Assembly: GCA_030247885.1 (NCBI GenBank)
Contig: JAPDRO010000001.1
Coordinates: 558,001-622,000 of the forward strand
Length of the DNA: 64,000 bases
From: Taxawa tesnikishii (nom. ined.)
Taxonomy: Eukaryota; Ascomycota; Dothideomycetes; Dothideales
Reading direction: 5' to 3'
Shown here: piece after piece, positions 13,344-59,161 of the stretch
Layout: each line of letters begins with the position of its first letter
Position numbering within the stretch: position 1 is the first letter of the stretch
Position numbers and translations under genes: made by a program
The notes under the pieces: model-generated
Seen by the model: the letters and a program-made list of their open reading frames with translations, nothing else
What the model was told of the DNA's origin: nothing
Database searches by the model: none

Positions 13344-16300
13344 CTATCTCCTCCTCCGTCTACCGGACCCCGGCATCTCATCAAGATCATCCGGTAACTC
13401 GCCACCCTGTTCTGTTCCCTCATCCTCCCCGTCTACTTCCTCGGGCTCCCCAACAACCTCTACACACCTTCCACACAAAGTTTCCGGCTCCTCAGCAATG
13501 TATTGCCAACACCGAACGCACTTCTCGCCAATCGGGGGCACCACGACCGCCTTACCCTTTACCGGTCTTCCCTCCTGATCCTCACCCGCGTCAAACTCGA
13601 CCTCGAATTTCCATTCGGGGTTCTCACGTAAGAGCCGGATCTCGCGCGTCTCCTCATCCTCTTCAGCTTCCATCTGCGCCCGCATCTCGGGGTCTGCTTC
13701 GACGATCTCGGCGTCGCTGACGACGAACAGTTCGCTCAGCTCGTCTTCGGCCTCGAGATCACGCAGCAATGGCCAGAAAGGCGTGCCGTGCGCGATGTGG
13801 ATCTGGACACCGCATGCGAGTCCTGAACCGATTCTGCCCGCCTGACGAGCCTGCTCCTGCGCGGCTTTGACGGCGGAGCTAACGCGCTGCAGCGCCGCCA
13901 TCTGCTTGTCCATCTCTTCAGGTTCGAGAGTATCGAAGTTGGCGGTGAACGGCGCGTCCCAAATCGTGCGCAACGGGTGCGGTTCATCACCTTTGAAGGT
14001 TTCGGGCATGTGTGCCCATACTTCCTCGACAAGCAGCGGAGTGATGGGGCTGAGCATGCGCAGTAGCTCGGTCATGATCAGGAAGCAGACTGTCTGCGTG
14101 TGCAGCCGAACCTCCGGCTCGTCGGCGTAAAGGCGGTCTTTGATGACTTCGAAATAGAAGGCTGAGAGATCCGCGTTGATGAAACGGTTGATGGCGTTCA
14201 CGCCTTTGAAAAATTCATAGTTGGCGTAGGATTCATGCACAGCTTTGGCGGTTTTGGCAAGCTGGTGCAGTGCAATTTGGTCTGCGAAGTACAGCTCGTT
14301 GAGCAAATCTTCGGCTGGGAAAGGCGCGGGGTAGTCATCTAGAACACCGAGCAGCCACTTAAAGGTGACACGGTACTTCTGGAGACTCTGGTGGACTGCG
14401 TGAAGGACAGGCTGACCAATCACCACGTCTTTAGTGTAGTCGCTGCTGGCGACCCAGAGTCGGAGGACGTCCGGTCCCATGACATCCTTTTGCGTTTGCG
14501 TCTGGCGCAAAGGATTACTCCGACCTTGTCCTTTCCCCTTTTTCGTCTTCAAGGCAGGGAGAAGCGAGCCGTTCAGGATTTCCTCGGGCGAGATGACGTT
14601 GCCGATGGACTTGCTCATCTTCCGGCCTTCTTGGTCGAGCGTGAAGCCATGGGTGATGAGCTTCTTGAAAGGCGCCACAGAGGTTCTTGCTGGATTTTGC
14701 CGGGCAACGTATGTGAGGAGCGAAGATTGAAACCATCCGCGATGCTGGTCGGTACCTTCAACGTAGACATCGGCGGCGGGCTCTCCTTCCCTGGGGCTAA
14801 GCGAAGTCCACGAAGTGCCGCTGTCAAACCATACGTCCATCGTGTCCTTTCCACGAACATACTCATCTGATTGCAGATTATCAGGGACCCATGCAGGTTC
14901 ATCTTCTGGATCGCTCCACCAAGCATCAATGCCACGTTCCTTGATGACTTCGATGATGTGATTGATGGATGCTTCTGTCATGACGGCCTCACCAGTGTCT
15001 TTGCGGAACAGCGCCGGAATCGGGACACCCCATGATCTTTGTCTTGAGATGCACCATTGACTCCGACCTTGAAGGAAGCTTTCCAATCGTGGTTTGCCAC
15101 TTTCAGGAATAAAGTCAACCGATTTCAGAGCACTCAAGGCGGGTTCCCTTATGCCTGCTGCATCTGCAAACCACTGCTCAGTGGCTCTAGTAATGACCGG
15201 CTGCTTCGTCCTCCAATCGATGGGGTTCTTGTGTCTGAAGTTGTGTGTGGCAAGAATAAGAGATGAACCGGGCTTGACTGAAGATGCAGAAAGCCTAGAT
15301 GCAGGATCTCTCAGGAGCTTCACGACGGCCTTGGCACCGGGATACTCTACTTCCAAGCCTTTCAGGTAATCGGGATCTGCTGGCAGTGCCTTGTCCGTGA
15401 ACTTCCCATGATCATCCACCGGGGCAAAAGCTGGCCCAATGTTAAGCTTCATGCACACATTGTAGTCGTCCATGCCGTGACCAGGTGCGAGATGAACAAG
15501 ACCAGTGCCCGAAGTGGAAGTGACAAACTCTGCGTGGATAATCTTCCCATCCTCGCCAGAAAGGATGTTGGTGTATTCGCAACCTTCCAGTGAAGATCCT
15601 GGAATCGACTCAACGATGACCTTGGCTGTGGTTCCTTCTGGGAGATGAGACAGTAAGTATTCTACCCTGTCTTTACCTAAGATTGTCTGGCCCTGAAGAT
15701 CGCTGTAAAGGCTTGTCAGCGTTTTGTCTTCTCGAAGAACGATCCTGCAAGTGAAGCTTATCTACGCTTGTCTACATACCTAGTGTTCGACTCGTTGTGA
15801 AATTCCACGACCGCATATTCCATGTCCGAGCGTACCGCAATCGCTTTGTTGGCAGGAAGCGTCCAGGGGTAGTGGTCCAGATGAGAGCGCTTACTTCGTC
15901 TGCGCGTACCGCTCCGTTTCCTGCGAGCGACTCTGGCAGGTGTGTGAGGGGAAATTTGACAAAAGCGGCGACTACCCTGTGGTTGTCGTCGTACTCTAGC
16001 TCTGCTTCCGCTAGAGCTGTTCCTGAAGATGGTGACCAATGTACTGGTTTGTTTTGCCGATAGATCAGACCTATGTTGCACAGTCAGAGTTTTTTCCGCA
16101 AAGCTCCCCAAACTGCACAGTCATGCTCGAGAGGGAAGCCATGAAATGGCTGGGACCGACCTCACCCTTGGCTACCATCTCCCTGAAGACATTCAGTTGG
16201 TTGATCTCGAACTCTGCGTTCATGGTCTTGTAGGGGTTCTCCCAGGCGCCCATAACTCCCCAGCCCCTGAAGCTTTCTTTCTGCTCCTCGATTGCCCTCG

Positions 16301-16814
16301 CAGCCAATTCTTTCGCAGCCTGCCGTATGCCGAGCGGGCTAAGTCCAGCATCGGATGCTGCAGATGCATCTCCTGCGACAGCCTGGGGCCCATTCTTCGC
16401 ATTCTTCTCCTTTCCCAATCCAAGCTCCCTGTGCGCCTGAAGCGCCTTCAACTCTATGGGCAAGCCATGACAATCCCAGCCCGGTGTATACTGCACTCTC
16501 TTTCCCCAGAGTAGCTCTTTGCGTACGATGAGATCTTTGAGAACCTTGTTCAGCGCATGACCAACGTGCACCGCGCCGTTTGCATAAGGTGGGCCATCAT
16601 GGAGTACGAAATTGTTGTCGCCGCCATCGTCGTTTTTCGTCGGACGGGTTTCCAGTTGCCAGGCATATAACTCATCCGCACATTGTTTCCGGTATTTGAG
16701 AAGATCAGTCGCAGTAGGACGCGCAGGAAATGTCGATTTGGGCAAGTTGAGGGTCTCCGACCATGAGGTCGGGTTCGTCGCGGCTGCGCGGAGGATACGC
16801 GACGGCTTCAGCAT
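13344..16814 (-). CDS. ism1: mitochondrial isoleucyl-tRNA synthetase
   Basis: This class I synthetase charges mitochondrial tRNA-Ile. Exons are 16166-16814, 15780-16070 and 13344-15744. The first intron is GTGAGG..ATAG; the second is only 35 bases (GTATGT..GCAG). The signature HVGH is at about residue 82 and KMSKS at about 689, with the editing-domain motif GTGLVHLAPGHGMDDY between them. The C-terminus carries the CVRCW and LCGRC zinc ligands seen in bacterial-type enzymes. The N-terminus looks like a mitochondrial presequence. In exon 2 the universal motif WTTTPWTLPAN is split between two frames at a run of four G on the plus strand (15866-15869). One more base restores it and makes the whole CDS 1114 codons. 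With an otherwise perfect gene this is probably a base-calling gap rather than loss. Confidence 0.9.
15745..15779 (-). other. 35-base intron in the IleRS gene
   Basis: The segment begins GTATGT and ends TTGCAG. Removing it joins EFHNESNT to RIVLREDKTL in frame. It contains in-frame stops, so it cannot be coding. Ascomycete introns are rarely this short; the count of 35 could rise by a base if a homopolymer inside was undercalled. Confidence 0.6.
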
Positions 16815-17173
16815 GCTGCGTTTTCTTCGGAGACAATTCTAGATAACGAGAGAAGCAAGCATCATCGATCAGAGGCAACTGGACAAGAACGGCCCAAGCT
16901 ACGGGACAATAGAAGCAAAGACGGGATCGAGGTGAGTGAGTGCTCTAAGAACGTCTCATAACTTTTTGGATGCCTCGTGATGGTCAAAGCTCACCTCCGA
17001 GTCGCCGCAGAGGAGTGTCTATGTCTACGACTCTACACGTACCGAGGCTAGGGGAACAACTGCAAGTATTTCAGATGGACAAAGTGATAGCATAACTATC
17101 TTGATTGATAGAGCCCATTCGGTATCTACTTTAGTCGCTCCCCACGATGATAGGATGGATTCCGGCGCAAGGC
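16815..17173. other. intergenic region upstream of ism1
   Basis: The 359-base spacer lies between the ism1 start and the 3' end of the PHAF1-like gene, both on the minus strand. It should hold the ism1 promoter and the upstream gene's 3' UTR. No repeats or further genes are visible. Confidence 0.4.
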
Positions 17174-18763
17174 TCAATACACCGTCAAGCTGCTTACAGC
17201 GCCATTATGCATGACCTCGAACATCAAGCCTGGCATCTTGTAAAGTCGGGTGTTACCAAGCCAGTGCTCTCCGTTCTTGTCCCAGCCTTCTTCCGTCTCC
17301 TCCATCTCTCCCGTAATTAAGATTGCTGAACCACTTGGGCTATCCTCACCCCACCTCCGTACGATGACCATGCCTTCCTCCATATCCTTCTCAGGCCAGA
17401 CACCTTTAAATGCTTGGAGCAAGCGCGAGTGGAACTGATCGAATTTAGATTCGGAGGTGATGAGCCCCTGGCCCGAGTCTGGTATATGCTCCAATGACCA
17501 GCGGCTTCTACGGTGACGATTGAAAGGGTACGATCCGGGTATATTTCCGTGGAAGATGACCCTCGTTGCGGTCAATCGAGAGTCTGCTGAAGATGCTGGC
17601 CTTGGGGTGTCCGCGTCGCAATCTGGTGTTGGAACACTTGCAGGGAGCGGCGAAATATCTGTAGGTGGGCCGACAAGAATGTCGAAACCATGGTCGAAAT
17701 AACAGTAGTACTGCTCCTCGATATGCGTGACATCATCCCCGTCGACATCGTCGTCATCGAAATCAGTCTCGAAGGTGTCCGTGTTGGTAGACGACATGCT
17801 GGAAGGTGTGGAGCCGTACGAACCGCGGGCTGCCAGATTAGAACCACGTCTTGCTCCGTTACGCACAGGCTTCTGCGGCTCGTCAAGATCCTGTTCTGAT
17901 CTTTTGTAAACCGAATTTGGAGGACCCAACTCTGTTATAAGATCTTGCGGTGTAGTCTCGCTGAGGATAATAAAGAACGGTGGGCTGCAACGGCGGACTA
18001 ACTCTACGCGGCCAGCACCATGAACCAAAGCATGCTCTATCTCGTCCGGGACAGCGTCCTTTGGGCGGGTGAGAAGCGCTATTGATCTCGGATGAGCTGG
18101 TTTTTAACAAATAGTTCCTTTCTCGCTTCTGGCCAGGAGTTGCCCTCGAATATGGATACTGCCGTTGCCGGGCTTGCGGAAGACGACAGCATAGTCGCAT
18201 GATCAACTTTGGGAGACCAGGCGGAGACCTGCAACGGAAACGATAGTGCAATCCCTGGAAATGATAGGATATAGGTTCCAGTACCGGAGCCATCCTGCGG
18301 CGGTACAAATTCTCCAGGATATGAAGGACCGAACAGCTGATACACTCTACGATACAGCAAGGGACTGGCCTCTCTTGTGACTGTTTGGATGTCTTGAGAT
18401 GGGACAATGTCTTCGTTTCTGTAAGTGAACCGCATTAAATGGAAGTCGACAATTTCGATGAGCCGGAGCCGTTGATCTGGTCCGTCAAACCGCAGCCTGA
18501 TTCCATTCTTGGGAAGGCTGATAACCACGGGGTTGTGACGGGGTTGGAAGCAGAGTAGGATATGTCCAGCTTCGTGAAAACCTTGCTGTCTTTTCTCAAA
18601 CTTGTCAACACCTCGTACAAAGAAGCCCCCAAAGCTGCGACTGGCGTTAGACGTGGCATACCCATGAGGAAGGAGTTGGAAGTCAGAATGCAGCTCCTGG
18701 GAACCACCAACCGATAGATCCGAGAGACTGTCCTGGACGGACAGATGAGACAGCAAGAGCCAT
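17174..18763 (-). CDS. PHAF1 / UPF0183 family protein
   Basis: Relatives of human PHAF1 (C16orf70) bind phosphoinositides at the phagophore during autophagy; the fungal role is inferred. Exon 1 (18712-18763) codes MALAVSSVRPGQSLGSI. After a 77-base intron exon 2 starts ALGASLYEVLTSL and runs to 17174. Family landmarks are GIRLRFDGPDQRLRLIEIVD, FPGIALSFPL, a central disordered acidic stretch, YYCYFDHGFDILV, FHGNIPGSYPFN and the end LMFEVMHNGAVSSLTVY, all in the order seen in the human protein. The frame slips twice: at a four-base run (plus-strand G, 18539-18542) between SASNPVTTP and VVISLPKNG, and at a five-base run (plus-strand T, 18101-18105) between RKELFVK and PAHPRSIALL. One base at each gives 504 aa with exact phases. 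Probable assembly gaps. Confidence 0.85.
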
Positions 18764-19374
18764 ATTAAGGCGCGGAGCAAGCGCTGTGGGATCGAAGGCC
18801 TCACGGCAAGATGGCTAGGACGCAGCGGCAGCAGAACGATCGCAGGTGCAACCAGGCGGTCGACAGAGACAGCAGCAGCAGCGGCAGCAGCAGCAGTTGG
18901 ATTCTGGTCGGTTGGTAGATGGCGGAAAGGACGGTGAAGTAATGATGGTCTATCTCATGTTCGCTTAGCCGTCATGTGCCTCTTTGTAGTCAGGCGCTGG
19001 CGTTTGGACGCAGCATGCTCGTGGTCAGTGGATGACCACCATCCTGCTTGATTGCACGATATGGGGTAGCACGGTTGTAGTCCCGGTTATAGATTCACGG
19101 AAGAGGTCAATATCAGGTTAATTGCGTAGATGGGCGCTTCTTGCAAGGGAATGAGCTGGTGAGGTCCAGCGATGCTATGAGATCAAGTTACATTCTAAGC
19201 CGAGGGACGGAGAAGCCGGTCCCTGCGGCGGGCGCTAACAATCGTCTGGCGTTGTTTACCTAGTAAACAGCGCTTGCTTGCAAGCGATGCGTGTACGCTG
19301 CTTGCTGCGTTCTGTATTGACGAACATTGCTACCAACCTTTTCAGGCATACATTGAGAAGGGTGAGTGCAAAGA
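18764..19374. promoter_or_regulatory. divergent intergenic region with CAG repeat
   Basis: This 611-base spacer lies between two divergent starts and must hold both promoters. A CAG/CGG triplet repeat sits at about 18867-18897, close to the PHAF1-like start and probably in its 5' leader (CTG on the sense strand). The other side has no clear core-promoter element. Confidence 0.4.
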
Positions 19375-22300
19375 ATGGCAGCTCCTCTGCGCCCTTTGCT
19401 GGCGACCAAGAAATCTTCGGCAATGCGTCCACCATCAATGCGCCCACCACCGTCACGATCGCAGACACCAGGACTGAACGGACGATTGTCACCTACAGGA
19501 TCTGTCGCCTCGAGTCACAGGTCGCCGCCCAAGCGCAAGGAACGGGATTTCGAGCAAGAGCCGGAACAGGAGACCAACATCAACGTTGTCGTGCGGTGTA
19601 GAGGTCGCAATGACCGCGAAGTCCGTGAAAACAGTGGTGTAGTAGTGTCAACAGATGGCGTTAAAGGAAAGAAAGTCGAGCTTTCCATGGGAGCAAGCGC
19701 TTTAAGCAATAAGACATACCATTTCGATAAGGTCTTTTCCGCTGCGGCTGATCAGGGCATCGTTTTCGACGAAGTAGTCGCGCCAATATTGGACGAGGTA
19801 TGCGAAAAAATTCCCTTCTGCAAAGCTCACTGACTCACACGTACAGGTTGTATCCGGTTTCAATTGTACCATCTTCGCATATGGCCAAACGGGCACAGGA
19901 AAGACTTACACCATGACTGGCGATATCACCGATGTGCTGCCTTTGCCTGATGCTGCCGGTATCATACCCCGCGTACTGTATTCTCTGTTCGACAAGTTAG
20001 GAGAAGGCGAGAGCGAAAACTCGGTCAAATGCTCCTTCATTGAGCTGTACAACGAAGAGTTGCGAGATCTGCTCTCAATGGATGATAGTGTCAAATTGAA
20101 GATCTACGATGACAACAGCAAGAAGGGTCAAACTACGACGCTTGTACAAGGGATGGAGGAAGCTTACATCAAGTCGGCCTCCAAAGGTCTGGAGCTCCTC
20201 AGGAACGGCAGCTTCAAGAGACAGGTGGCTGCGACCAAGTGCAATGACCTGAGCTCCAGAAGTCATACAGTTTTCACCATAACGGTAAACATGAAGAGGA
20301 CAACAGAAGCGGGCGAGGACTACATGTGCACTGGAAAACTCAACTTGGTCGACCTTGCTGGTAGCGAGAACATCCAGCGTAGTGGAGCGGAGAACAAGCG
20401 AGCAACAGAAGCCGGCCTCATCAACAAGAGTTTACTAACCCTGGGTCGTGTTATCAACGCGCTGGTTGATAGAAACTCTCATATTCCCTATAGGGAGTCC
20501 AAGTTGACCCGCCTGCTTCAGGACTCTCTCGGTGGAAGAACCAAAACGTGTATCATTGCTACACTATCCCCAGCGAAGTGCAACCTTGAAGAAACGATCT
20601 CCACTCTGGATTATGCCTTCAGGGCAAAGAATATCCGCAATAAGCCCCAGGTCAACCAATTGGTTTCCAAGACGACTCATGTCAAAGAACTCACCGCGGA
20701 GATCGAGAAGCTCAGGAGTGAACTGCTTGCGACCCGGCATCGAAACGGCGTCTATCTGACTCAAGAAAGCTACGAAGAGATGACAACGGAGAGCGAATCG
20801 CGCCGCATCTTGGCTGAGGAACAACGCGACAAGATCGAGACCATGGAGAACAACCTGCGCAACAAGGTCCAAGACCTTTTCACCCTGACGAGCACCTTCA
20901 ACATGCTGAAGAAAGACAACGAAGCCGTCAAAGTAATGCTCGATGAGAGCAAGACTCTGCTGGAGAAGACTGAGATTCTTTTGTCGAACACCAAGCGCAA
21001 TTTGGCGGAGGAGACGTATCTGCGGAAAGCACATCAAAAGGCCGAGGACCAGCTAGCCACCATGGGTAAAGGCTTGCTCTCCACATTGAAAACAACCACT
21101 GGAGACATTGATGGTCTGCATTTGAAGCTTCGTCGTAAATCTGATCTGCAATCCGTCAACCGCAGCCAATGGGCTTCTTCCCAGACGCGCGTAGTTGAGA
21201 CCACCAGAATTGTTGACCAACGTATCGAAGCGCTCAAGCAGCAACAAGAACAGCTGGTCTCCGTACTGTCTGAAAGAATGCAAGACTTTGTGCGAAACGA
21301 ACTTCAGGAGCTGCAGCGATCGCAGAAGTTTCTGCAGTCAAAGGCAGAGGCTTTCCAGGCTTCTGAGAAAGAAGTCAATACTCAAACGCTCCAAGCCCAT
21401 GACGAGATGAACGAAGTTTTGGAGGAAATCAGAACTCTAAGAGAAGATGTCAAGCAGAAAGTCGGCGCTGGACTCACGGACCTTTCGGCTGCGGCGCAGA
21501 GGATCTCTGCTGGTATCGCTTTGGAACTGGAGTCGTTCCATACTCAGGTATGCTTCTTGCTGTGAACATCAAGATGTTGTGGCTGACCGACACAGCTTCA
21601 TGCGTCTTATGCCTCACTGGGCCGCGAGTTCAAATCGGTTTTCGACGACGTCACAAGGCAATTAAACGAGCAGCAATCCGAGGCCGACAAACTCAGGCAG
21701 GAAATCTCCGGCGCCAACACGTCTTTCATCGAAGCAGGACAGGATTCGCGTCAGTTCCTCCAGCAAGCAATGGAGGAGGAACAGCGAAGAGCAGCTGCGG
21801 ACCGTGAAAAGCTATTGGCACAGATCAACTCGCTCATCACGTCTTCAGCCGAAGCTCAGGAGAGGAGAGTTACTGAGCACCTTGCTAATGCTACGAAGCG
21901 GATCAAGACCTCAGAGGACGAGTATATGGTGGCCCAGCAAGGCTATAACGATGGCATGGGCGCATGGTCGTCGAAGTCACAGGCTCTTATCGACTCCTGC
22001 GTCCGTTCTCGGGAGAATGTCAAGGCAAAGATAAAGGCGGATTTCGCTGCTGCCAACACCCAGACCGAGAACATCAAACGGACTACGGAGGCAGTTCACG
22101 CTGAGACTGTGCAAATAGTCAACGAGCAGATATCGCACATGGACGCTCAATTGGTGTCTTTGGATGAAATCGTAACCAGAGTCCGGACGCAGAACGATGA
22201 GCACCACAAGACGCATACCTCTTCGTTCGCGCAGCTTTCCGCGAATGTACAAGAGTCATACAACAGCGTCGGCGCGCACATGGATACCTCGTACAAACGT

Positions 22301-27291: not shown

Positions 27292-28683
27292 ATGAAGTTG
27301 TACGTCCTCGGTCCAGCATTTGGACTGCCATCCATTGACGCGGAATGTACAGCGGCAGTCGCACTTCTCAAAGTATTCTGCCGCAAGCACCATCAGGCTT
27401 GGGAGCTTGTAGCGACTCACGAGCACGGAAGTACAACGTCTCTGCCTCTTCTCGTCGACGGAGGATGTACAACTAGGGGTTACAAAAGCATAGCCCGATA
27501 CCTAGCTAAGGCAAATGGAGACATTGATGGACTTCTCACCGGTTTGTCTCCTAAACAGAAGGCGGATCACGCAGCGTTAGTAGGCTTGAGAGGGCCATTC
27601 TATTTTTGGGTTGACATCCTCTAACAGGCTTTCCTCTTTCATCGAAGCAGACGGCCAACTGCTCCTCGACGTGTCCCTCTATGTATCCTTCGAGAACTAC
27701 CGTCTACGCACCCGCCCAGCTTTCACTCGCATCCTGCCATGGTGGGCCAACTACGTACTTCCTCCCCACAGGCGCGCAGCAGCAAAGGCGCGTACAGAAC
27801 ATCTGGGTGTCTCTACGATCGATATCGACACTGTCCACGATGATCTGATCGACAAGCCGAAGAACTTGAAAACGAGCCAAAAGGGGTTTGAACATGAAAC
27901 GGAGAAAAGGGCAAGACATCTACTTGGTCGGCAGAACACCGTGAGCAGCATGTTAGGGAAACCTGAACATGCAGCTGCATTTCGTTTGAAGGCACTGAGC
28001 GACGCATTCTTTGGGCCTCTGCGGGATTTCCTAGGCGACAATGAATATCTGCTGAGCACCGATGCGCCGTCGCTTTTGGACTGCCTGGCCTACGGCTACT
28101 TGAGCTTGATGCTATACCCACAGATGCCACAGGACTGGCTCGCCACTGCTATCCGCAAGCAGTATCCAAGTATCGCTGCCTATGTCGAGAGACTCAGGTG
28201 TGATCTTGACGTCGATGCCGAAGCAGAGAAGGTGATGGCCCTGCCCACCAACGGAGGCAAAGTCGAGGATGGTAGCAATCTTCCATGGGTCATCCCTGAG
28301 AAGACTGCCCCGGAGTGGTTATCTCTTTCATCGGGCAGGATCTCTTTCACCGGATCCCCCTTGTTGGTAGTCGGTCTCAAGTTAGTGGCGCCCAGTCAGA
28401 CGATCAGGAAACTAGTTTCTTGCGTGCTTACATGCCAGGACTGCTGGGCTTCGTTTCAACGTCACTCGCTCTGTTCGGATACTGGGTATTCCACAACACC
28501 GAGTGGCCCCACGGCGAGCGGGTGCAAGTCTTTGGCCGCAAGAGGCTCGTCGATTATGGAGAAGCTGGAGCTGCACTAGCTGCTCTCGGCAGTCAGTTGC
28601 AATACGAAACCGCCTATCAACAGCAGCAGCGGGACGGTCCTGTGCAGGTTGATGTGGTTCTGGATGAGCAAACCGCACCTTGA
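27292..28683 (+). CDS. sam37: Sam37/metaxin-like outer-membrane sorting subunit
   Basis: Sam37 (Tom37) is a subunit of the SAM complex that inserts beta-barrel proteins into the mitochondrial outer membrane. Exons 27292-27575 and 27628-28683 (intron GTTAGT..ACAG) open with MKLYVLGPAFGLPSIDAECT, the hallmark start of fungal Tom37-type proteins. A thioredoxin/GST-like fold continues through DVSLYVSFENYRLRTRPAF, RARTEHLGVSTIDIDTVH and the metaxin-like STDAPSLLDCLAYGYLSLML. A C-terminal membrane segment (GLLGFVSTSLALFGYWVF) is followed by a polar tail. The frame changes at four C (28308-28311): upstream PWVIPEKTAP, downstream GVVISFIGQDLFHRIPLVG. One extra base gives 446 aa in exact phase, so a base-calling gap is the likeliest cause. 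Confidence 0.85.
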
Positions 28684-32336: not shown

Positions 32337-35231
32337 CTACCTCCCGGCTCTTCTCAACGCAGCCTTCATGGCCAACATCTCCGCCCTCATCTGCGCCATC
32401 TCTGACTTCAAACGCCGATTCTCTTCCCTGCACTCACGGATCTCATCCCTCAATCCGCTCACGACTCCCGCACCGGCCTCAGCCTTGCCAACGAACGCTT
32501 CGGGCCCATGCCCTGCCCTCGCCTCGCCATTGTTCTCCAACGTCTGCGGGTGCAGTTCTCCAGCATCTTCAACGACACGAACCGAGCCGTCTTTCCGCAC
32601 CCGCGTCCGTTTCCGAGGAAGCCGGAACGAGGGACGTCCTTGCACCGCGTTCAGCGCCAGCCCCGTCAACGCTGCTCGCTTCCCCCTCCATCGCGTTGCT
32701 TTGCGCCAACGACTTCCTCGTTCCTCTCGAGCAGCGGGGCGTGCGTCACGCGTGTCTCTCTCGTTGGCTCAAAGGACGATGAGCGCGGGAGCAGGGTCTG
32801 GATATCCTCGGGCTCGGGCGTGCAATCCACAGCTTCCTCCAAATGCGTGCGCGCTGTATCATACGCTCCCGTGTTAGCAGTGCTTTGCGCTGCTCCCGCG
32901 TCGGCGAATGTAGGGTGTCTGAAGCGGACGGGTTCGAAAACGTCAGTCGTAGTTACGTCCGGAGATGTCAGAGTGGGCGTATCGGAGGTTGCCGCGCTGA
33001 GTGAGGTCGAGGACTCCGGAAAGTCGCCGGTCAGATGCGCGGGCAGGCTCATTGTGGTCGAGGAGACGGCTGCGACGGGTCGAGGCAGCGGACGTTTCTT
33101 CAGGCGGCGTTTTTGCGTTCTCGATTCATGGTCGGAATCCGAAGTCACCCAGATATCGTCCCCCAAGCCGTTGGAGGAAGCAGACAAGGACTGCTCAGTC
33201 GTCGACTTTGACTCCTCTCTCGGCGTGAGGACGGCATGCGTCGCAGAGTTCGCCATACGGTCGTCGACGTCGTGCACGCTGACGGGGTACGAGACGTAAT
33301 TTGGGTCGTCGTTACCTTCAGCAGTCTTCGTGCTTTTCAGGTACGGCGCAAAGAATGCAAGCCCTGTACTCTTCCTTCTACCCCTAGGTTTCCCTCTTTC
33401 GCGCTCATCCTGCGTAAATCAGCCAGAATCTGGCCGTTCCTGACGACGTTCGGCGCTGAGCTACCATCGAAACCGGCATTGGTTTCGACCAATGGCGGTG
33501 GCGTTTTTCGGGGTGATGTTCGAACTTTACGTCTCCTCATCGCGGATGTGGCGGATCCAGTTGCCGATGGGCGACGTGGTGACCTAGCCGGTAGCTGAGG
33601 TGTAGGTCTTGGAGTCGGGCTAGACGAGGCGGTGCCATGCTCGGCAGGAAAGACTGGTGGATTGGTTGGAGAGATGGGTGGTCGGACTGTTGGACTTTGC
33701 TCCCCGGCTGTTTGAAACCCGGTGAATGTCTTGCTGGACAGGCGTGGGCGAGAGGGAGCGCGCTTTGCGGTGTTACCCCTGTGACGTGCACTCCGTGGAG
33801 GAGGACTGATAGGCGGTTCTACCTGTTTGACCGGCGAAAAGAGATCCAAATAATTTGCTGAGGGTGGCGGGAAAGCGCCCTCTGGTGGGAACGATAGCTT
33901 CTTAGCAGGGGACTGCTGGACCGTGCCGTAGTCCACAACTGGAAGAGCGTTTGTCATGGAAGGTACTTCTTCCCGTCCTGCGTCCTTTGCAACAAACCGC
34001 TTCCTGCGTTGCCTTGGCTGCGTCTCCTCTTCTTGGACGACTGACAGTACTGGTTCGCTGGACAATGGCTTTGGGCTGGCGCCATGAGCCCAATCCAGGC
34101 TTATAACTCTCCCTCCGTCTGGGTCTACAACAATCTCGTCCAACTTTAGGCCAACAGAATCGAACAGCACGACCCTTCCATCTGCCCTTCCTACCGCTAT
34201 CACTTCTCGAGGCCGTTTGTAATGGTTGTTGATGCTCCCCGGTTCCGCTTGTGATCGTTGACCGTCCGATCTGGAATGGAAGAGTTGAAGTCGTGCTCCT
34301 GAACACGTAAAACAGATAGCGCAGTAACCGGAGCCTGAGCGTGCCAAGTGCGTAAAATCGCCCCCGCCCCCGAAGTCGACGAGCCTGCATCTCCCGTCCC
34401 CACCCACACTGATCGCGCGTGTGTGGTAACCCGGTAAAAACGCCGCCGATGTAATGCCCACGCTCCTTGCGCCCACGGCGACAGTTCTCGATTCCCTGTC
34501 GTATCCTCCTGGCGCCGCAGCAAGCAAGACACCTCCCCGATCCGTGGTACCGACGTTCGTGACCCTGTGCAGGTTCCTGAAACGCGCTATCTCCCTCCCT
34601 CTTGTGTCCGTGTCGCCGACCTGGCGCTCCCGTCCATGTCCGGTTCTGACGGGCGTCTTTGTCGCATCGTACGCCGCCAATGTGCCGTCCTTGAAGGCCA
34701 GAAGGAAGACGTCGTGCCTATCCGGATGGAAGGCGGCTGCGACAACGGGTGCATCGCTCGCAGCGGGGTGGAGTTGATGCGCGCGCGTGTTCAGGCTTAG
34801 GTTCTGCAGATACACAACGGTCGGGTTCTCGCTGGCGCTCAGCAGCAGATGCGTGGATGGCGATACAGCGAAGACAGTTGGAGGGCTGGGATGCGGATGT
34901 GCTGGTCTAAGCAGCTTTTCTTCGTGAATGGAGTAGCACTGCACGGATCCGGAGATGCTGGTGCCGAGAAAGAGGCTCTTTGCGTTCGGCGCGTACTCCA
35001 GCAGACGGACTTGACCCTCATCGGCACCCAAGCCCCAACTCTTTTCTCGCCCCTCCGACAGTCGTGTAATACTACAACGTGTTTGTCTGCGACGGCGAGG
35101 ATGCCGTTACCGGACTCTTTGGCTGCGCAGATACCTCCGCGGCTGCTGGCGAAGATGGTGTGAAGGCCTTGGAGATCCCATGTATGTACTTTGTGAGGGG
35201 TGGTGATTGTCAAATGATGCGATGAGAACAT
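32337..35231 (-). CDS. WD40 propeller protein with C-terminal coiled coil
   Basis: The start MFSSHHLTITTPHKVHTWDL opens a WD40-like propeller covering about residues 1-340 (blades seen at GNGILAVADKHVVVLHD, HLLLSASENPTVVYLQ, AISVGGDGRCRLVDF and EVIAVGRADGRVVLFDSVG). A disordered part rich in Ser and Pro (about 340-850) and a C-terminal coiled coil (GLRDEIRECREENRRLKSEM) follow. This layout (propeller, linker, helix) resembles NEDD1-type gamma-tubulin recruiters, but sequence alone does not prove that. Three one-base gaps break the frame: within 35033-35045 (four-base C and T runs on the plus strand), at 33381-33384 (C4) and at 32682-32686 (C5). Restoring one base at each yields 965 aa with no intron. 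All are of the same type as in neighbouring genes. Confidence 0.7.
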
Positions 35232-35998
35232 TGTAAATGCTGCTGGTGTAACGCTGCATTCTATCCAGTGCTATCGTGTTGTTCTGTCGCGAGTTGCATG
35301 TGAAGATGCGAGGGACCAGCGTCAACAGAAAAACAGTGACGTCGCCTACAATTGGCTGGGGAACTGGAGCACGAGTCATGAATCCTGTCTACTGTCCACA
35401 CCTACACCTACACCTACACCTACACCTACACCTACGCCCATGTTCAGCCTGTCCGTGGCAGGATAAAGCATACACGATACACACACAATCCAGGCAAAGG
35501 ATGAGTAGACCGAGAATACTAACAGATCGATTCGAGTTTCAAGCGCTATCAATATGAGAAAGGAAACAGCGCATCGCAGAAGCATAACAATGCGTCAATT
35601 TAGCCCTCCGGTGCATGTCAATCTGTGCCCCCTCCTTTCCCCATCATCCAGTTTACTCAACTCTCGTCTCGTCGTCCTCACCTCTCCTTCGTCGTCACCA
35701 CCCTCTTCACCATATCCGGCTCGCGCCACGTCGCGTTACGGAAAGAGTTCGCCTCCAGGCACCCGGTAAGTTCCATGAAGGAATGTCGACACCCTTGCTC
35801 TTCCGCGGTGTGCACCCAAAGAAGTCCGAAACGGCTGCGAAGAGGTGTAGTTCAGGATTGATCCTTGTGAAGGATAGTCATCGGATTCTCGAAATGTGGT
35901 CCATCATCCTCAAGAAACCATTCGGTTGTGGTAAGATTTTTTAGGTCCAGGATTAGCCGCTTCAGTAATGGAAGTCTCGGCCACGCATCATCGCCCTG
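35232..35998. other. intergenic region with hexamer repeat
   Basis: The 767-base spacer holds a CACCTA repeat of about six copies at 35395-35434. It sits about 165 bases upstream of the WD40 gene start, so it may lie in that gene's promoter or leader. The repeat is not the TTAGGG telomere unit. The remainder should be 3' UTR of the PIN-domain gene; no other gene is supported. Confidence 0.4.
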
Positions 35999-38217: not shown

Positions 38218-38219
38218 TA

Positions 38220-38244
38220 TGATACCTCGGCAAAAGTCTGCGTA
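38220..38244 (+). repeat. left terminal inverted repeat of the Tc1/mariner element
   Basis: These 25 bases match the reverse complement of 39543-39567 without mismatch. TA immediately precedes them. Confidence 0.95.
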
Positions 38245-38409
38245 ATTCCCCGAATCCTCCGAATCCAGAAGCCTACCCTCTGATGCACCACCCTATGCCC
38301 TGTACCTATAACACTAGCAATTAACTAGCAAACTGAGTATGGAATAGTTCAGATCTTGGAGGTTTGCATGGCAACTCAGGAATAGTGATTTTCTTCAGTA
38401 TCTAGTGTA

Positions 38410-39488
38410 CTAGCCATCATTCTGAAGGCAAGCCTGGATCCTATCCACCATACTCACAACACAGTTATACACTGCATTACTACTGATATGATCCCAAGCA
38501 TGTACAAGGGCATCTTCCATCCTTTCATGTACAAAGTCATTACCACCACTCCATAGATCCATGCCAGGATATAGCTGAAAGAGCTGCTTTTTGAGCATAG
38601 CCCATACATGCTCAATGGGGTTCAGATCTGGTGAGTATGCAGGCCAGTCTTCCACCAGTTTGATGCCTTCCTTTCTGAAAAAGCTGCTGTCTTTCTGGCT
38701 GTGTGTATACCAGCGTTATCTTGCTGGAATAGCAGGTCCTTATGGTACATAGGAAGTAGGCCCATAGTAAGAGCATCAATGTATGAGTTTGCTGAGTACC
38801 CTTGCCTCTTTGACTCCATATCCCTACGCATAACAATCAATTCAGTCTTGTAGTTGCTATATATGCTAGCCCATACCATCACACGTATGTCCTTGCTCTT
38901 GTTGAATGGTTGAACCTTGTCTTTCTGGTATGCTTGGCCAGTAGCACGCCATACATAGGCAGCTGGTTTACCAGATCCACGCTCTACAGAGCACTCATCT
39001 GAAAAGATGACTTTTAGCCAGTCTTCAACACTCCAGTCTTTGTGTAATTCACACCATTCTCTTCTCCTTTCAGCTGAGGCTTCTGACAACAAAGGTCTCT
39101 TCTTGGCAATCCAATCCTTGATGCCTTGGTCCTTCAGAACTCGGTAGACTGTAGCATGGCTGCAATCCAGCTGGAGATCCTTCAAAAGCTGGCCATAGTT
39201 GTGAAATGGATATTTACGCGCATAACGCACAATTGTACGCTTTGTGCGCTCTGTACAAGCTTGTGGACGGCCCATGCGAGGTTTGGAGACACCGTGTAGT
39301 CGCTGAGAGGACCTTTTGATAGTAGTACTAATGGTACTGGCTGTAAGGTTGAAGATCTCGCGTATTTGACGCTGTGGTACACCAGCAATAGCCATTCCAA
39401 CGATCTGATTTCTTGTAGCTGGTGAGATCTCAGTATTGCGACGTCTATTACGCGGTATCACAGCAAGAGCACGAGTTTGTGGCGCCAT
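38410..39488 (-). CDS. Tc1-like DDE transposase
   Basis: The start is MAPQTRALAVIPRNRR. Two helix-turn-helix regions follow (ATRNQIVGMAIAGVPQRQIR and YGQLLKDLQLDCSHATVYRV) for binding the inverted repeats. The catalytic core has IFSDECSVERG (first Asp), LLFQQDNAGIHTARKTAAF (second Asp) and PAYSPDLNPIEHVW (third acid, Glu), with about 35 residues between the second Asp and the Glu. The frame changes between KTAAF and RKEGIKLVEDW at a five-base run (plus-strand A, 38678-38682); one more base would give 359 aa. Because the same -1 pattern appears in host genes, the transposase may in reality be whole. Confidence 0.9.
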
Positions 39489-39542
39489 AGTGGTGGTTGA
39501 ATTGATAGAGTGTTATTCTAGCTGACGCGTCGCGCGAATCTG

Positions 39543-39567
39543 TACGCAGACTTTTGCCGAGGTATCA
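39543..39567 (-). repeat. right terminal inverted repeat of the Tc1/mariner element
   Basis: Exact inverted copy of the left repeat, followed by the TA target duplication at 39568-39569. Confidence 0.95.
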
Positions 39568-39598
39568 TATGTGATACTGGGTACCTGTAATCCACAAC

Positions 39599-40342: not shown

Positions 40343-40436
40343 TGATGTGAAGCATGCGAGATCATCCCGAACGTAACACACCAACTCAACGAATAGAAGG
40401 ATGGAATGCACAAGGCATTCAATTGTGAACAAATGC

Positions 40437-46425: not shown

Positions 46426-46597
46426 CGCAGAGGGTTTCGTCGCATAAGCTCGGTCGGCAAGAATGCAAAACGACAACCGGGGTTGAGAATGAGCAAGACG
46501 AACGAACGATGATACTGGCACGGACACCAATAGACAAACCAACCGTCGACAGCTTGTGTTGAGCAACGGCCTCTTGCGAGCGCTTTCCGCACCTGAT

Positions 46598-48618: not shown

Positions 48619-50483
48619 ATGGCGATTGGAAATCTCTATGTCATTGCGGCTATCGCCGTCGTTGGCGGTGGTCTTTTCGGTAACACAACAAGAATCCCAT
48701 CACCAGAATTGACACCACTGATATGGCAAAGGCTTCGACATTGCTTCTATGTCCGCCATTCTTGGCACAATGGCGTACAAATGTTACTTCAACCAAGGCC
48801 CGGATGGCCCACCGTTCAACCAGAATCCTTCGTGTTCTGGTCCGAGATCGAGTGTGCAAGGCGGTATCACCGCAGCGATGCCTGCCGGATCATGGCTGGG
48901 TGCTATCGTTTCAGGTTACGTTTCGGACATCCTCGGTCGCAAGAAAGCGATCATGGTCGGATGCGTCATCTGGTGAGCATTTTTCACCCACTTTCGACTG
49001 CAGACTGACGTCGTGTTCGCAGGTGTATCGGCTCCGTCATCTGCTGCGCTTCACAGAACGTCGGGATGCTGGTCGCTGGTCGAGTGATCAACGGCCTTTC
49101 CGTCGGAATCGAGTCTGCACAGGTCCCCGTTTACATCTCCGAGCTCGCCCCGCCCTCGAAGCGTGGTCGCCTCGTGGGAACTCAGCAATGGGCGATTACC
49201 TGGGGTATTTTGATCATGTACTAGTAGGTCACACTGCGAGCCTGCATCTGTTCGGCATTGACGTCGGCCAGTATCTCTTACGGAGCCTCCTTCGTCGGAG
49301 GAAATGACGCATTCACCTACAGCACGGCCGTGTTCCGTATCCCATGGGGCATTCAGATGGTTCCTGCTGTTCTCCTTTTCACGGCAATGCTGTTCCTTCC
49401 AGAATCTCCACGTTGGCTGGCACGCAAAGATCGCTGGGACGACTGCCATAAGGTTCTGACGCTGGTCCATGGAAAAGGAAACCCCGATAGCCCATTTGTC
49501 GTACACGAGCTCCATGACATTCGCGACATGGTAGAATTCGAGGCCAAAAATGCGGATGTCTCTTACCTCGAGCTTTTCAAGCCACGCATGCTGAACCGAA
49601 CCATTATCGGTGCTTTTACTCAGATCTGGGCCCAACTTACGGGAATGAATGTAATGAGTGAGTGACAACGGCTTCTACAATGCCTCTGGACCGTCATCTA
49701 ACCTCATCAAAGTGTACTACATTACCTACGTCTTTGGCATGGCTGGTTACAAAGGCAATGCAAATCTCCTCGCGTCTTCAATCCAGTATATCATCAACGT
49801 CTTCATGACAATCCCGGCTCTGGTTTTCATTGATCGTTGGGGCCGGCGCCCTACACTCCTGGCTGGAGCTCTGCTCATGGCGACTTTTATGTTTGCCAAT
49901 GCAGGCATCCTAGCCACTCACGGAACCGTTGTACCTGGTGGCGTCGGCGGCGTCCCCGAAGAATCCATGTCCCTACAAGGCTCTGCCGCCAAAGGTCTCA
50001 TCGCCTGCACCTATCTCTTCGTTGCATCTTATGCTCCCACCTGGGGACCGGTCTCTTGGATTTATGTGAGTTGTAGCCTTGCTCTGATCCGCTGCATTTC
50101 CACTAACGATTGTGTAGCCACCCGAATTGTACCCTCTTCGCGTTCGCGGTAAAGGTGTCGCCTTCTCCACCTCCGCCAACTGGGCGTTCAATACCGCTCT
50201 CGGCGCATTTGTTCCTCCTGCGTTCGAGAACATTAGATGGAAGGTCTATCTGATCTTCGGTATCTTCGACATTGCCATGTTCTTCCACGTCCTCCTCGGC
50301 TTCCCGGAAACTGCGGGCAAGACCTTGGAGGAGACCAAGGAAATGTTCGAGGACCCCAATGGCATTCCGTACATTGGCACTGCGCCCTGGAAGACCAGGG
50401 TCCAGACCAGCAGCGTGCGCCACCTCGAGGATGGCCAAGTGCCTGTGGAGAAGGTCGAGGCCTTCAAGAACGACGATGCTTAG
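48619..50483 (+). CDS. MFS sugar transporter, second copy of the family
   Basis: Six exons (48619-48679, 48732-48972, 49023-49223, 49272-49657, 49713-50065, 50118-50483) give 535 aa in phase. Sugar-porter motifs are GFDIASMSAILGT after helix 1, SDILGRKKAIMVG in loop 2-3, GRVINGLSVGIESAQVPVY, ELAPPSKRGRLVGTQQW, PESPRWLARK after helix 6, QIWAQLTGMNVMMYYITYVF in helix 7, DRWGRRPTLL, PPELYPLRVRGKG and PETAGKTLEETKEMFE at the end. The DI-S-MSAILG start resembles fungal pentose and hexose porters. It differs from the transporter at 30-32 kb in intron positions and sequence, so the two are not a recent duplication. The substrate is not predictable. Confidence 0.92.
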
Positions 50484-51133
50484 CATCGTGAAATGAACCA
50501 TTGTGGAGCTCTGAATGTCAAGAACTGTACTCCAATCGAAAGCTTCCATTCGGAGGACGTGGCTTAGTGAAGGACATGATTCACGTATACATCTTGTAAT
50601 CGTCTTGCAAATGATCGACAGGTCTGTCCTAGGGATCCTTGCCATAGGCGTGCTAATCCACATTGCATTTGCGCTCGTATCGGAAGGGGATCGTTGCGGT
50701 ACAAGCGATAGACATGACCGGAGAACGATTAGTCAAAGTCAAAAGGTACATCGTGTAAGAGACTCGGTAGCGCGAAAGCCTGGCGCGTACTGTTTCCCGC
50801 TCAACAGTCCGTCCGTTGTGCGCCAAAAGCGTCCTTCCGTCCTCTCTCTCAGAGGGCAATGGCGTGCGCTCTCCCGATCTCCATGAACGCCCTGGTTATC
50901 CCTAGCGGTGATTGCCTGAATTGAGACCCGTAACCCTTCCAACGCCTTCTGCGAGATTTCATGGTGACGGGAGTAATAGCGTCACGGTAGGAGCTCCGGA
51001 CGACTCCATCAAACGGTCGTGATACCAGGTGTGCCACGCTCCACCAACATCCTGCAATAGTTGGCTTTGTCGCCTGTAGTTGGGGAGTCAGATCAGCCGT
51101 GCGCGCATGCTGTCGGATGGGATGGGGAAATAC
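50484..51133. other. convergent intergenic region
   Basis: The 650-base spacer lies between two converging genes. I see no gene, repeat or mobile-element end in it. Confidence 0.4.
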
Positions 51134-52465
51134 TCACACCTTCCGAGGAGGTTTCGTTTGCGGTACTTCAAGACCAGGAGTCTGCGGGCTTTCGCCCTCC
51201 TCAGAGGCGCTCCATGCACTGTACAAGCTTGTAGTCTTGACCGTTGCCGGCTTTCGCTCGAAACTTGCCGTTCTGAATGGTAACGGTCTCAGTGAAGGGG
51301 AGGGACGGTGTGCGCGCAGCGAAGAAGAGGGGCTACTCGGACGTGGTGCAGGAGAGGACTGTAGAGGTCTTACAGCGGGATGTGGACCGCTTATGGGTAG
51401 TGAAGAAGGTGAAGGCACGGTTAGGAGCTCTGATTGAGGATTCAACGGCGAGCTCGAGTCAGCTCGCCTTAGCTGCGGCCGGCCAAGGTCCTTGAAAGGA
51501 CATCGATCCATGGTCGGAAAGAGTGTCTTCGTCCGCTCTGCTTCCTCGACCGAGCGACCCAAAGATGTTTTTCCGGATCCACGGCTACAGTTTGTTGACA
51601 CTGACGCATGACTGTCTTTCCGGTCTGGTATGGAATCAAGGTGCGGGGCAGGCTGTTCGTGAGGGGGACCGTACTCTTCACCGTCGGAACAGTGGTAGCG
51701 TGCAAGGAGATCGTTCTGTACCCATATAATTTTGCCAAGCGCTTTTGTGACGGCAACTTTCCGGGACATTTCAATGTCTGGGTGACCCAGGATGGCTTCG
51801 TAGATGGCGTTTTGAATGTAACCCAGACATGCTCCAAGGAAGATGTAGTCGATATGGAGAGGGTTTGTACGACCGCCGCCAAAGTGCATCAGACTGGTGG
51901 CACGATGAGTAAGACGTAATTTGTGGTGATGGCCCGAAGATAACGGCAGATGTCATGGCTTACCCAACTCTGTCTAGATACTCCCAGTACTCGGGAGTGG
52001 AAGGATCTGTGTTCAGTCTAGTAAGGTACCACCGCAAGATCTTCACGTCCCTTTTCGTCAGCAGTCTGGCAACAGAAGACTGTGAAGGCCTCACACACCA
52101 TTTCCCGATGTTTGACCTGTGTGCCCATTTCTGGAAGCCAGTAGTCTACCGGGTCTTCAATGCGGGTATCTCGTGTTGTGAAGGCCCGAGCAGTGACGTC
52201 GTAATGTAGTATTTTCTTGAAAACAGATTCCACGATGCTCGGAACTGCTTGTTTGATGTGCTTCTGATTCTCGCGTAGTGCAGCAATGTCCTCTAATCCG
52301 ACGGTCAGCAGTGCCCTAGAGCACCGGACGGATGTGGGAAGCACCATTGTTGAATTCAAGGAAGGATAGCAAGAACTCTATCCGTGCAGGTAACTTTGTA
52401 AAGAGCTCCTTCCGGTCGACGTGTTGCATCTCCTGGAGTATCTTGTCTTCCAGTATTCTTGGCAT
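51134..52465 (-). CDS. protoglobin-type globin-sensor domain protein
   Basis: Four exons (52345-52465, 52099-52292, 51964-52040, 51134-51893) give 383 aa in phase. The first about 230 residues match the fungal protoglobin family: MQHVDRKELFTKLPARIEFL, then EDIAALRENQKHIKQAVPSI, KKILHYDVTARAFTTRDT, HREMILRWYLTRLNTDPST, YWEYLDRVGLMHFGGG and PLHIDYIFLGACLGYIQNAI, ending with KALGKIIWVQNDLLARY. Members fold like globins and bind heme in the archaeal and bacterial prototypes; whether the fungal ones sense oxygen or another gas is not known. The His in the LMHFGGG segment is a candidate proximal ligand. The last about 140 residues are disordered and rich in Pro, Ser and Arg, without an output domain. 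The intron 1 donor (GTGCTT) is weak. Confidence 0.8.
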
Positions 52466-54179
52466 TGTGAGAGATGTGGATGATACGTGACCGGGACTCA
52501 CGTGGGGTAGGCAGGAAACAAGAGATATAAGCACGAAGATACGGGTACATGAATACTTCTCGACCGGCGGTTCTAGCTTGCCGTTGGGTAATCAGAGACA
52601 TTGAAGCAGATGGAACGACGCTCGTCGCAACGGTAAAAGCCACGAAAAGCCACGGCAAGTCCGAAAGACGTAAGAATTTGTTGGAAAGCCGAGACGGGAC
52701 CAATTGAGCGTGAACGTGTTCCGGGGACCTAATTGTTCTCTAGATGCCATTGGCAGCCCACTCGTTGGTTGGTGCTTTCTATCGACAGTTGCAATCCGGG
52801 TTGTTCAACTGTCATCAGCCGTTGTAGGCTATCGATGGCTTGCCATAGTTCACACGCTTCTAGCCTGTGTCTCTTCCTACGTGCAATGCTGATCGTATTT
52901 CTCTCTGAACGGCCTCTGTTTGAGTCGTGAGAACATGTGTAGACCGAGGAGGAGATGCGATACGTATGTGTAAGAGAGAGCAATGGTTAGCAGCGGACGG
53001 GACGGGCCGTCTTGCCGCGGTACAGCAGAAGGCCGCTTTATCGAAACCAACCCCAATCAAGCGGTCCGATAGTTGAACGAGATTTGTATTGTGCGCAAAG
53101 CAGGCGGCTATTGCATACCCATTGCGCCGTTTTCCCTGCAGTATCCGAACTGCTTCGGCCACTGGGTCTGCCACACCTCAACGCGACACGTCCCCTACTG
53201 CTATCGGAAATTCCATAGCTCAGTCTACCGCTCCATACTTGCCTCACCTCTCTATCAGTGCTGTGAATTTCGAGACGTCCCCGAATATGGCCGTTCACTC
53301 TAGCAGACCCGACTCTCGATGTCGGGCACACGGACACCTACGGTGCAATACCGCCGTATGGCGGACATATCCAGACAATGAGAACCGGTAGCAAGCATTG
53401 CGCGCAGTAGCGCCTTGTTCCTGCTAAATTTCTGATGCTTTGGCCTATGTACCCACTTGCGAAGCAAACATAGTGTTACATTCTTACTTTCGTCTGTTAA
53501 TCTGCAGCTACCCTCAAGCTGTCCTAACCTTCATATCATCGATAGAGAAAACCAGTACAGCCGGCGCATCCCTTCAGCCACACGGTTGTCTCCTTGTTCC
53601 CTGGCATGACCGCAGCACCCGTGCCAGGCCGAACCCAATCTTCCACCTCAGCGGGGCCCAGTCTAGACACCGATCAACAAGATAAACTTTCTCGCAAGGT
53701 AAAAATCTTCTCGCCTACGGAAATACAAGTACCGCATCCCCTTGCAGTTCCGCCTCTGTCTTCTCTTCGTTTTCGCCGAATGTAGCATGCTGTGGTTAAA
53801 GAGAGGCTCGTGAGCACATAACATCATGCCCCCTTTGCTCGCGAACATCAAATGCAACGCTCGCCTGCCGAGGCAAAAAATAGCAAGTAAGGCAACACAA
53901 AGGCAACAGGCCCACAATAACACCGAAAACGATGCAGATGCAAGTGTTTCAAAAAAGCAAAAGGTATAGTGCGATGCCCGCGAATGCCGTACACCATGCA
54001 GAGAGTGCGAGAAAGCAAAACAGGAGAAGCCATACAGTCTAAACGCCAAGGGCGGGGGAATGAAGACAATGTAGAATTCATGTGGACAGCCATGCCCTGT
54101 GGCTGTTGACATGCCTTTTTTCTTCTTCTTCTCTGTTTCCTGCTGTTGTTTGTGGATGTTTCGGATGAAGTGCAAGGCC
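52466..54179. other. long intergenic region
   Basis: This 1714-base stretch is the longest without a gene in the window. It should hold the promoter of the globin-like gene and the dbf4 3' UTR. A/T-rich runs and a CTTCTT stretch at about 54118-54132 are seen near dbf4. Small frames on both strands lack any family signature. I find no inverted repeats, tRNA or transposase remains. Confidence 0.4.
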
Positions 54180-56456
54180 TCAATTCAGGGTAGGGCAGGT
54201 TCTGGGAGGACGTTCGAGCTTGCTGAGAAGACGGTCGAGATCGGCCCAGTTCTCTGCTGCGAGGGCGAATTTGCGGTGCTTGCGTGATAGAATATGCTTT
54301 TGATGCGGTCAGTGACGCCTGCTGGTGGAGACGTGAACCCGTCACTCACCTGATCAAAATCGTCGAACTTGTCCCTACAATTCTCGCAGTAGCCTGGCTT
54401 AAGTTCCTTTTCCACCGCAGTCTTCTTCCGTGGGGTTGAACCCGTCGACCGCGCGCTGCTGTCCCCTCGCCTTCCGGTTCCTCGTTGATATATCCCAAGG
54501 TTTCTTGTGCCTTGCGTTTGGCAGCCCTTGTGGCTGGAGGGCCATCGCCATTAAGTGCGGCACGCATATCGTTCAGGTAAGAAGAGTTGATTGTGTTGTT
54601 GGATGGGATACTGTTCCCCCTTTCGAGTACCTTTCTCTTCAATGCGGTGATCTCCTTGCTCGTGCTCAAGCGAGCTCCAGGTGCAGTGGAGGAAATGGCG
54701 TTGGAGGACACGATCTGAGAGCGTATGGCAGATGTGATGTTTGAAGGCTGTACGCCGGAAGCCACGGGTTCGCCGCCAACGTATCGAGCGTGGCCTCGGA
54801 TGTTTGCCTGAGCGCTGCCAAACATTGGAGGCATGCTATCGACCGAGTTGATAGAGTTCTGCCTCTTGCCTGGTATAAGCTTGGGTGGGTCCAATGGCTT
54901 TGAATCAAGCCCTTCTAGGAAGGCCTTGCGTGGTGACCGCCCGACATTCGGTTGTCTCTCTGCCAGGGCTTGTTGCGGCGGTCCCTCCAATCCAGCGGCA
55001 GCACGACTGCGGGTACAAGGTGCTGCGTTGACGTTTTCCCGCTGTTTCTCCTCGGCTACCGCTCGTTCCTCTTCCTGCATCCGGAGCTTCCTGGTGTGAA
55101 TGGGATCTTCGACAAATGGACAGCGACCAGCGGCACTGAGGCGAAATTGGGGCCACTTGCCTTCCTCTTTTGGGCTACCTTGGCGTAGTCTCTAATCATC
55201 ACCGGACGGGTCTTCTCGTCCATGTCATGCACGTAGATGAAATAGCCCCGGAAATTGCACATATCCTGCGGGGCAACACTCATGTCACCAGTACCGACCA
55301 GCTTTTCGTGGCGCAGAAGCTGTTGTAGGTCTGTCTCTTTGCCCTGTTTTGCGGAAGCCAGGGAGGCTGTGGCGTGGCTTCTCGTGAGAGGTCCGTTGCC
55401 GGGCTGTTCCCCGGTGTGTGCATTGAACATGGTAGACATCATCCTCTGCAGCTTCTCAAGGGCCCAAATCTTGATGCCAAGCTCCCTCGCTTTAGTCAGT
55501 ATGTCTGCATTTGCAGCGACGTGTCTGTGAGCTTCGGCATCTTGAAGACTACAAAACGAGTTAGCCTGCCGTTGTCCCACGTCAGTAGGTCAGCGATGAC
55601 CGACCTTGAAACAGCGCCGTTACGGGCCCTCTTCTGCAAAGTTGCGTCAAGGAGGTCAGTGGTCCTACGTTGTGCATCTTGCACTCTTGCATCGCCAATA
55701 CGGTCGAGCAAAGAAGGGTCGATGGTCTTCGTTGCCGTGGCTCCGTGCGCAGCGTGGTCCTGCTTTGACGCGGAGGAAAGCTCCTCTTCAGGGCTGGCAG
55801 TGTGTACTTCAGGCGGTATCGTGCGAGTAGTAACAACATGAGTGACCGACTTCGAGAAAAACTTTTCCTCTTTCTGGCGAAATGTCAGTGAGAAGAACGG
55901 GTATTCAGTGCTAGTGAGTGCTCACTGCTCCGAGATAGTGGATCTGCCGCGATATCCGGGTACGTATGTCATCCGGTACGCTCTCAAAGTAAAACGTGTA
56001 CCCGGGGAAGGCCTTGCGATAGTGCTTCTGCCACTGACGTATGTTCTCCAGGTTGTCCGCAGCTCTCACGGGTCTGTCCAGCGGCCTCGACTGGGGTATA
56101 GGCTTGCCTCTGGCAGCTGCGAGCTTTTTCTCAAATGCAGTAGGCGGTGCGTTGCTAGTCTTCCTCATGAATACCTTGGCCTCTTGGTCCTGCAACGCAG
56201 GGTTCTGACGCGTGAGTGTGCGTGGCGCCGTGTTTTCGTCGTTGTCCTTGATCTCTATTACCACCTTCTTCGACGGTGGTTGGCCATACACCAGCTCGCG
56301 TGCATCGGCAACCTGGGCTCGTGTGCGTTTACCGCCGACGGCAGCAACATTCCGAAAGGGCGAGTTGATTGCATTCGTGTTATTTGCAAGAGGCACTCTT
56401 CTCGTCGTCATCGTGGGAGTGGATCGGGGTTGTACACCGGGTGTAGGAATACTCAT
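54180..56456 (-). CDS. dbf4: DBF4, regulatory subunit of Cdc7 kinase (NimO type)
   Basis: Dbf4 activates Cdc7 to fire replication origins. Exons are 55926-56456, 55605-55873, 54350-55548 and 54180-54296. The start is MSIPTPGVQPRSTPTM. The N-motif/BRCT-like region includes WQKHYRKAFPGYTFYFESVP, FFSKSVTHVVTTRTIPPE and ILTKARELGIKIWALEKLQR. Motif M follows in DMCNFRGYFIYVHDMDEKTR and WPQFRLSAAGRCPFVEDP. The C-terminal DBF zinc finger has PGYCENC and HILSRKHRKFALAAENW, its Cys and His ligands split by the last intron. Exon 3 slips frame twice, at plus-strand T4 (55168-55171) and C4 (54463-54466). With one base at each the gene is 706 codons and all phases fit. As drawn, motif M and the zinc finger are out of frame, which conservation argues is an assembly effect. 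Confidence 0.9.
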
Positions 56457-59090: not shown

Positions 59091-59161
59091 GTCATCGATC
59101 GTTCTTGCCTTCCATTCTCGAGTATATATACGAGACCCTGGCAGTGAGTGTACTGGAGTCG

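Follow-up and report, generated by a model that had tools for sequence, protein, structure and literature searches.

Frame breaks near short homopolymer runs in six genes of a 64-kb fungal window point to probable homopolymer undercalling

Six genes in the window, the whole 64,000-nt stretch of DNA that was analysed, carry reported frame breaks: those for isoleucyl-tRNA synthetase (IleRS), a PHAF1-family protein, Sam37/Tom37, a WD40 protein, a Tc1/mariner transposase and DBF4. Judging from the sequence, we consider it highly probable (about 90%) that a technical artefact, homopolymer undercalling, lies behind the supported breaks and probably behind the others. Single bases would have been lost from short homopolymer runs in the consensus during assembly, which may have been built from long reads with too little polishing, and the genes would then be intact in the living organism. 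The first-pass annotation had proposed the same cause, and it remains the best explanation, given the single sign of the breaks, the runs nearby, the conservation on both sides and a break within a transposon. We infer the presence of the missing bases in the real genome, the particular run affected within each interval and the type of sequencing behind the errors; the sequence does not reveal the platform, and more than one could have left such marks.

The window contains about 54% G+C, and a tRNA scan and an Rfam scan of its whole length gave zero matches. Genes for DBF4, Sam37/Tom37, PHAF1, squalene synthase, kinesin and eIF4E suggest a filamentous ascomycete as the source. The genes contain short GT..AG introns (48–95 nt across a trusted set of 24), and these 24 score 1.3–7.0 on the scale used for all candidate introns below.

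At all ten breaks the open frame steps with an identical sign, as had been claimed for lesions of the -1 kind, and this is the sign expected of single-base losses, although a gain of two bases would look identical to the loss of one. The sign test gives 0.002 for the ten breaks and about 0.03 for the best six (our own arithmetic). The further claim that exactly one base is missing at every place holds for the common sign and falls short at two places, which are without homology support. A uniform -1 sign also favours programmed -1 ribosomal frameshifting or transcriptional slippage, either of which would restore the frame in vivo, and one interval does contain an in-frame GGGAAAC heptamer. Such heptamers (X_XXY_YYZ, in frame) are nevertheless found in 1 of 10 intervals against about 0.9 by chance (our arithmetic), and we know of no programmed frameshifting in six unrelated genes within 64 kb, so that this explanation appears extremely unlikely.

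Family matches lie in both frames at six of the ten breaks (IleRS 15866, PHAF1 18539 and 18101, transposase 38678, DBF4 55168 and 54463), so that conservation is seen on both sides of these. At four of them (IleRS 15866, transposase 38678, DBF4 55168, PHAF1 18539) the residues matched on the two sides are adjacent or overlap, and an intron therefore has no room there. Matches are one-sided at two further places, downstream at WD40 35033 and upstream at Sam37 28308. For 33381 and 32682 in the WD40 gene the evidence is the open frames themselves, with a family match on neither side near the break. We regard the original observation as partly confirmed, because two of its places are without homology support and two are one-sided.

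The IleRS gene (13344..16814, minus strand) has one break, with tRNA-synt_1 and Anticodon_1 split over frames and alignments to solved IleRS chains; it appears to be of the bacterial/mitochondrial type. The break falls in 15864..15872 (minus), which has a 4-base run inside and where neighbouring IleRS-chain residues lie in two frames. The upstream frame aligns with solved IleRS chains as far as WTTTP (2.7e-9). In the downstream frame the alignment begins at PWTLPANKAIAV, where the best E is 0.052, yet all 10 of the 10 listed chains are IleRS. Conservation persists past the break (tRNA-synt_1, 4.2e-57). A candidate intron nearby scores up to 7.0; in our reading it is the gene's next intron, past the break.

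The PHAF1-family gene (17174..18764, minus; 5' end uncertain) has two breaks, with PF03676 matched in three frames. Around 18539 (18528..18546, minus; two 4-base runs inside) profile positions 6–41 are matched in one frame and 36–170 in the other, so that they overlap between frames; the upstream match, at 13.5 bits, is sub-threshold for the family cut-off. The profile continues past the break (8.7e-15), and a candidate intron scoring up to 4.0 was rejected, as it would throw away the matched upstream frame. At 18101 (18082..18103, minus) the two frames overlap by 22 bases, the interval overlaps a 5-base run, PHAF1 is matched in both frames and the best candidate intron scores -0.3. A PDB search with the 3' piece gave just one unrelated weak match.

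The Tc1/mariner element (38218..39569, minus) was recognised from its inverted repeats, HTH_Tnp_Tc3_2, DDE_3 and chain 5cr4_A, and its transposase has one break. Its terminal inverted repeats (38218–38244 and 39543–39569) are perfect over 27 nt, so the element looks young and recently inserted; this young-looking transposon carries a break of the same kind as the host genes. Residues 6–145 of 5cr4_A align in one frame and 146–179 in the other, which places residues 145 and 146 in different frames at 38678 (38665..38695, minus; 5-base run inside).

The DBF4 gene (54183..56735, minus) has two breaks and contains DBF4_BRCT, Dfp1_Him1_M and a zf-DBF in two exons. Across 55168 (55143..55173, minus; two 4-base runs inside) the frames overlap, and Dfp1_Him1_M positions 2–68 are followed by positions 59–80 in the other frame. 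The second break, 54463, lies in a linker (54400..54550, minus; three 4-base runs inside) between flanking domains in different frames, Dfp1_Him1_M upstream and zf-DBF downstream. Candidate introns scoring 4.9 were rejected here, as they come only after one half of the zinc finger, which already reads in the new frame; the remaining candidates score 1.6 or less. PDB searches with both DBF4 pieces found nothing.

The Sam37/Tom37 gene (27292..28683, plus) is matched by Tom37, GST_C_6 and Sam37 chains, and its 3' part is drawn from the open frame only. A possible break lies at 28308 (28300..28360, plus), where the match is upstream, the best candidate intron scores 0.7 and the downstream piece gave zero Pfam or PDB matches. 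The WD40-protein gene (32400..35270, minus), with three reported breaks, is delimited by its open pieces and is uncertain in extent; WD40 matches are confined to 33340–35106. A six-base tandem repeat of 6.3 perfect copies lies upstream of this gene (35398–35435). The break at 35033 (35030..35050, minus; two 4-base runs inside, one at the edge) is probable from the downstream match, and its best candidate intron, scoring 2.8, was rejected, as it would cut out matched WD40 sequence. Those at 33381 (33340..33418, minus) and 32682 (32669..32768, minus) are tentative: profile search found no family in the pieces downstream of them, and the gene might instead end near these places.

Unrecognised introns or gene ends are thus an alternative for the less supported places, in that the frame downstream of 33381, 32682 and Sam37 28308 matches no family and the 2.8 candidate at 35033 exceeds 4 of the 24 trusted introns. 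An equal-penalty gene-finder, which used codon usage and charged introns, -1 and +1 shifts and nonsense changes one cost, also chose introns at every break. Several of these introns are clearly false, and the listed models (score above 8) contained no lesion of any kind; with its all-intron output the program therefore has no power as a lesion census here. Against introns stand the matches that adjoin or overlap at four places and, elsewhere, the low scores of the workable candidates (-0.3 to 2.8, against 1.3–7.0 for trusted introns). A GT..AG intron that bridges the frames and leaves the domain whole has no room at those four places and only low-scoring candidates at the rest. Introns and gene ends as the full explanation of all ten breaks are extremely unlikely; that account is already excluded.

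Undercalling predicts runs at the lesions above chance, and a run of at least 4 is present in 10 of 10 intervals, the limits of which were partly hand-drawn. The earlier claim of runs of 4–5 at the breaks stands to this extent; it has little meaning in the wide linkers, where a run of at least 4 is expected by chance in 40–70% of cases. In random coding intervals of matched lengths the chance of such a run is 0.09 to 0.70 per interval. The product of these chances is 2.4e-5 for the six narrow intervals and 1.7e-6 for all ten, values that are optimistic because most interval limits were drawn by hand with the runs already seen. The runs are present at the ten places where they had been claimed, with two small coordinate slips: 18539–18542 reads CGGG, the GGGG being at 18540–18543 with a second 4-base run at 18529–18532, and 35033–35045 covers two runs, C4 and T4. 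CDS lengths that become whole numbers of codons after repair had also been offered as evidence. That argument is circular, because every start-to-stop frame has an integer number of codons.

Run lengths in the window as a whole were compared with expectation. G10 at 11461 and C12 at 60730, whose survival had been noted in the first-pass annotation, both exist and lie outside the coding mask; they are the only runs of at least 8 in the 64 kb, and there are no G/C runs of 6–9. The surviving long runs are evidence neither way. Over the whole window, G/C runs of 6–9 number 0 against about 19 (order-1 chain) and about 11 (order-2 chain) expected. Outside the coding mask, which is imperfect and was used without a fungal control, they number 0 against 5.4–6.7 expected; A/T runs of 6–9 outside the same imperfect mask number 12 against 6.8–8.9 and are not depleted. 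This outside class is not purely non-coding, because the mask missed exons (e.g. in the protoglobin and APC11-like genes).

Coding runs were counted in 14 CDS pieces (13 genes without a reported break and the last IleRS exon; 20,319 bases) against synonymous shuffling. G/C runs of at least 6 number 0 against 4.9 shuffled, and those of length 5 number 3 against 18.4. The corresponding E. coli MG1655 values are 2 against 6.7 and 9 against 27.3, and a coding scarcity of long G/C runs is likewise described for E. coli, yeast and worm in an excerpt of PMC1378130. The coding G/C depletion therefore gives no support for undercalling, because E. coli and the published account show the same. Coding A/T runs are also scarce in the window (length 5, 7 against 17.1; at least 6, 0 against 3.5), unlike those of E. 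coli MG1655 (length 5, 89 against 75.6; at least 6, 25 against 32.3), a contrast resting on a single bacterial control and too little to build on.

To assess other types of lesion, 16 other genes of the window were inspected, and no insertion-type or nonsense lesions were seen in them. Fourteen have Pfam-matched exons (kinase, kinesin, squalene synthase, two sugar transporters, dehydrogenase, GH47, amidotransferase-like, eIF4E, rhodanese, Sir2, M24, UBC-like and protoglobin); the other two we take, by eye, to be APC11-like and ARID-like. Regions outside the matched domains were judged by open frames only, and six further gene models stand outside the 16. An apparent break in the amidotransferase-like gene proved by eye to be a 49-nt intron at 10247–10295, and the reading of the APC11-like, protoglobin and second sugar-transporter genes likewise, by eye, continues across ordinary introns. 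The protoglobin-domain gene (51137–52498, minus) has several ordinary introns and reads through. Imperfect tandem repeats are clustered at 58953–59272, directly upstream of a Sir2-family gene.

Nine of the ten lesions lie in minus-strand genes, and minus CDS makes up 53% of the CDS table. The number of genes hit is 6 against 8.2 expected for ten random lesions, a mild clustering (P 0.052, to be read with the caveat that lesions sharing a gene do not count as independent events). Both points weigh against undercalling. On the assumption that every one of the ten is an error, the rate is 10 per about 39.4 kb of CDS, near Q36 (our arithmetic).

Real mutations, either in a mismatch-repair-defective (mutator) isolate or in genes decaying to pseudogenes, would accord with this mild clustering in 6 genes, and a mutator would be expected to leave one-base losses at runs. 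On the other hand, mutator slippage should prefer runs longer than 5–6, DBF4 and mitochondrial IleRS are required for growth in the fungi where this is known, conserved sequence persists on both sides of the breaks, and other lesion types were not seen in the 16 other genes. The varied lesions that had been named as the mark of true pseudogenes were not found; there is one lesion sign, and matches persist past the breaks. We consider real mutation of this kind very unlikely. It is also very unlikely that the short runs are real and that the fungus belongs to a lineage in which homopolymers lose single bases at a raised rate, and in which several frameshifted core genes are rescued through slippage in transcription, through ribosomal frameshifting or by intact copies carried in other nuclei.

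Homopolymer undercalling, the preferred reading, has practical consequences for users of the assembly. Automatic pipelines may split genes such as DBF4, IleRS and PHAF1 or leave them out, and gene-loss claims made from the assembly would be unsafe. The breaks are most likely a matter of data quality, without biological meaning unless the short run lengths hold up in accurate reads.

Fungal mismatch-repair hypermutators reportedly accumulate one-base shifts at homopolymers. Such shifts are mutations carried by isolates; in the present case several core genes are affected at once and are known from the assembly alone. Long-read consensus errors are the other known system for comparison. In nanopore reads long runs are shortened, with C and G worst, and run lengths are mostly correct up to about 5, according to an excerpt of PMC8486125. 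The affected runs would be 5–6 long, which counts against nanopore undercalling. Consensus quality for S. cerevisiae was about Q20 to Q32 in one comparison excerpted from PMC8011154. The present case differs from such consensus errors in that its runs are short and known from assembly sequence. It resembles them in that single bases missing from runs interrupt conserved genes, as in the homopolymer indels within genes of low-coverage ONT assemblies of filamentous ascomycetes (excerpt of PMC9453082), and in the systematic residue that is left after polishers (excerpt of PMC8011154).
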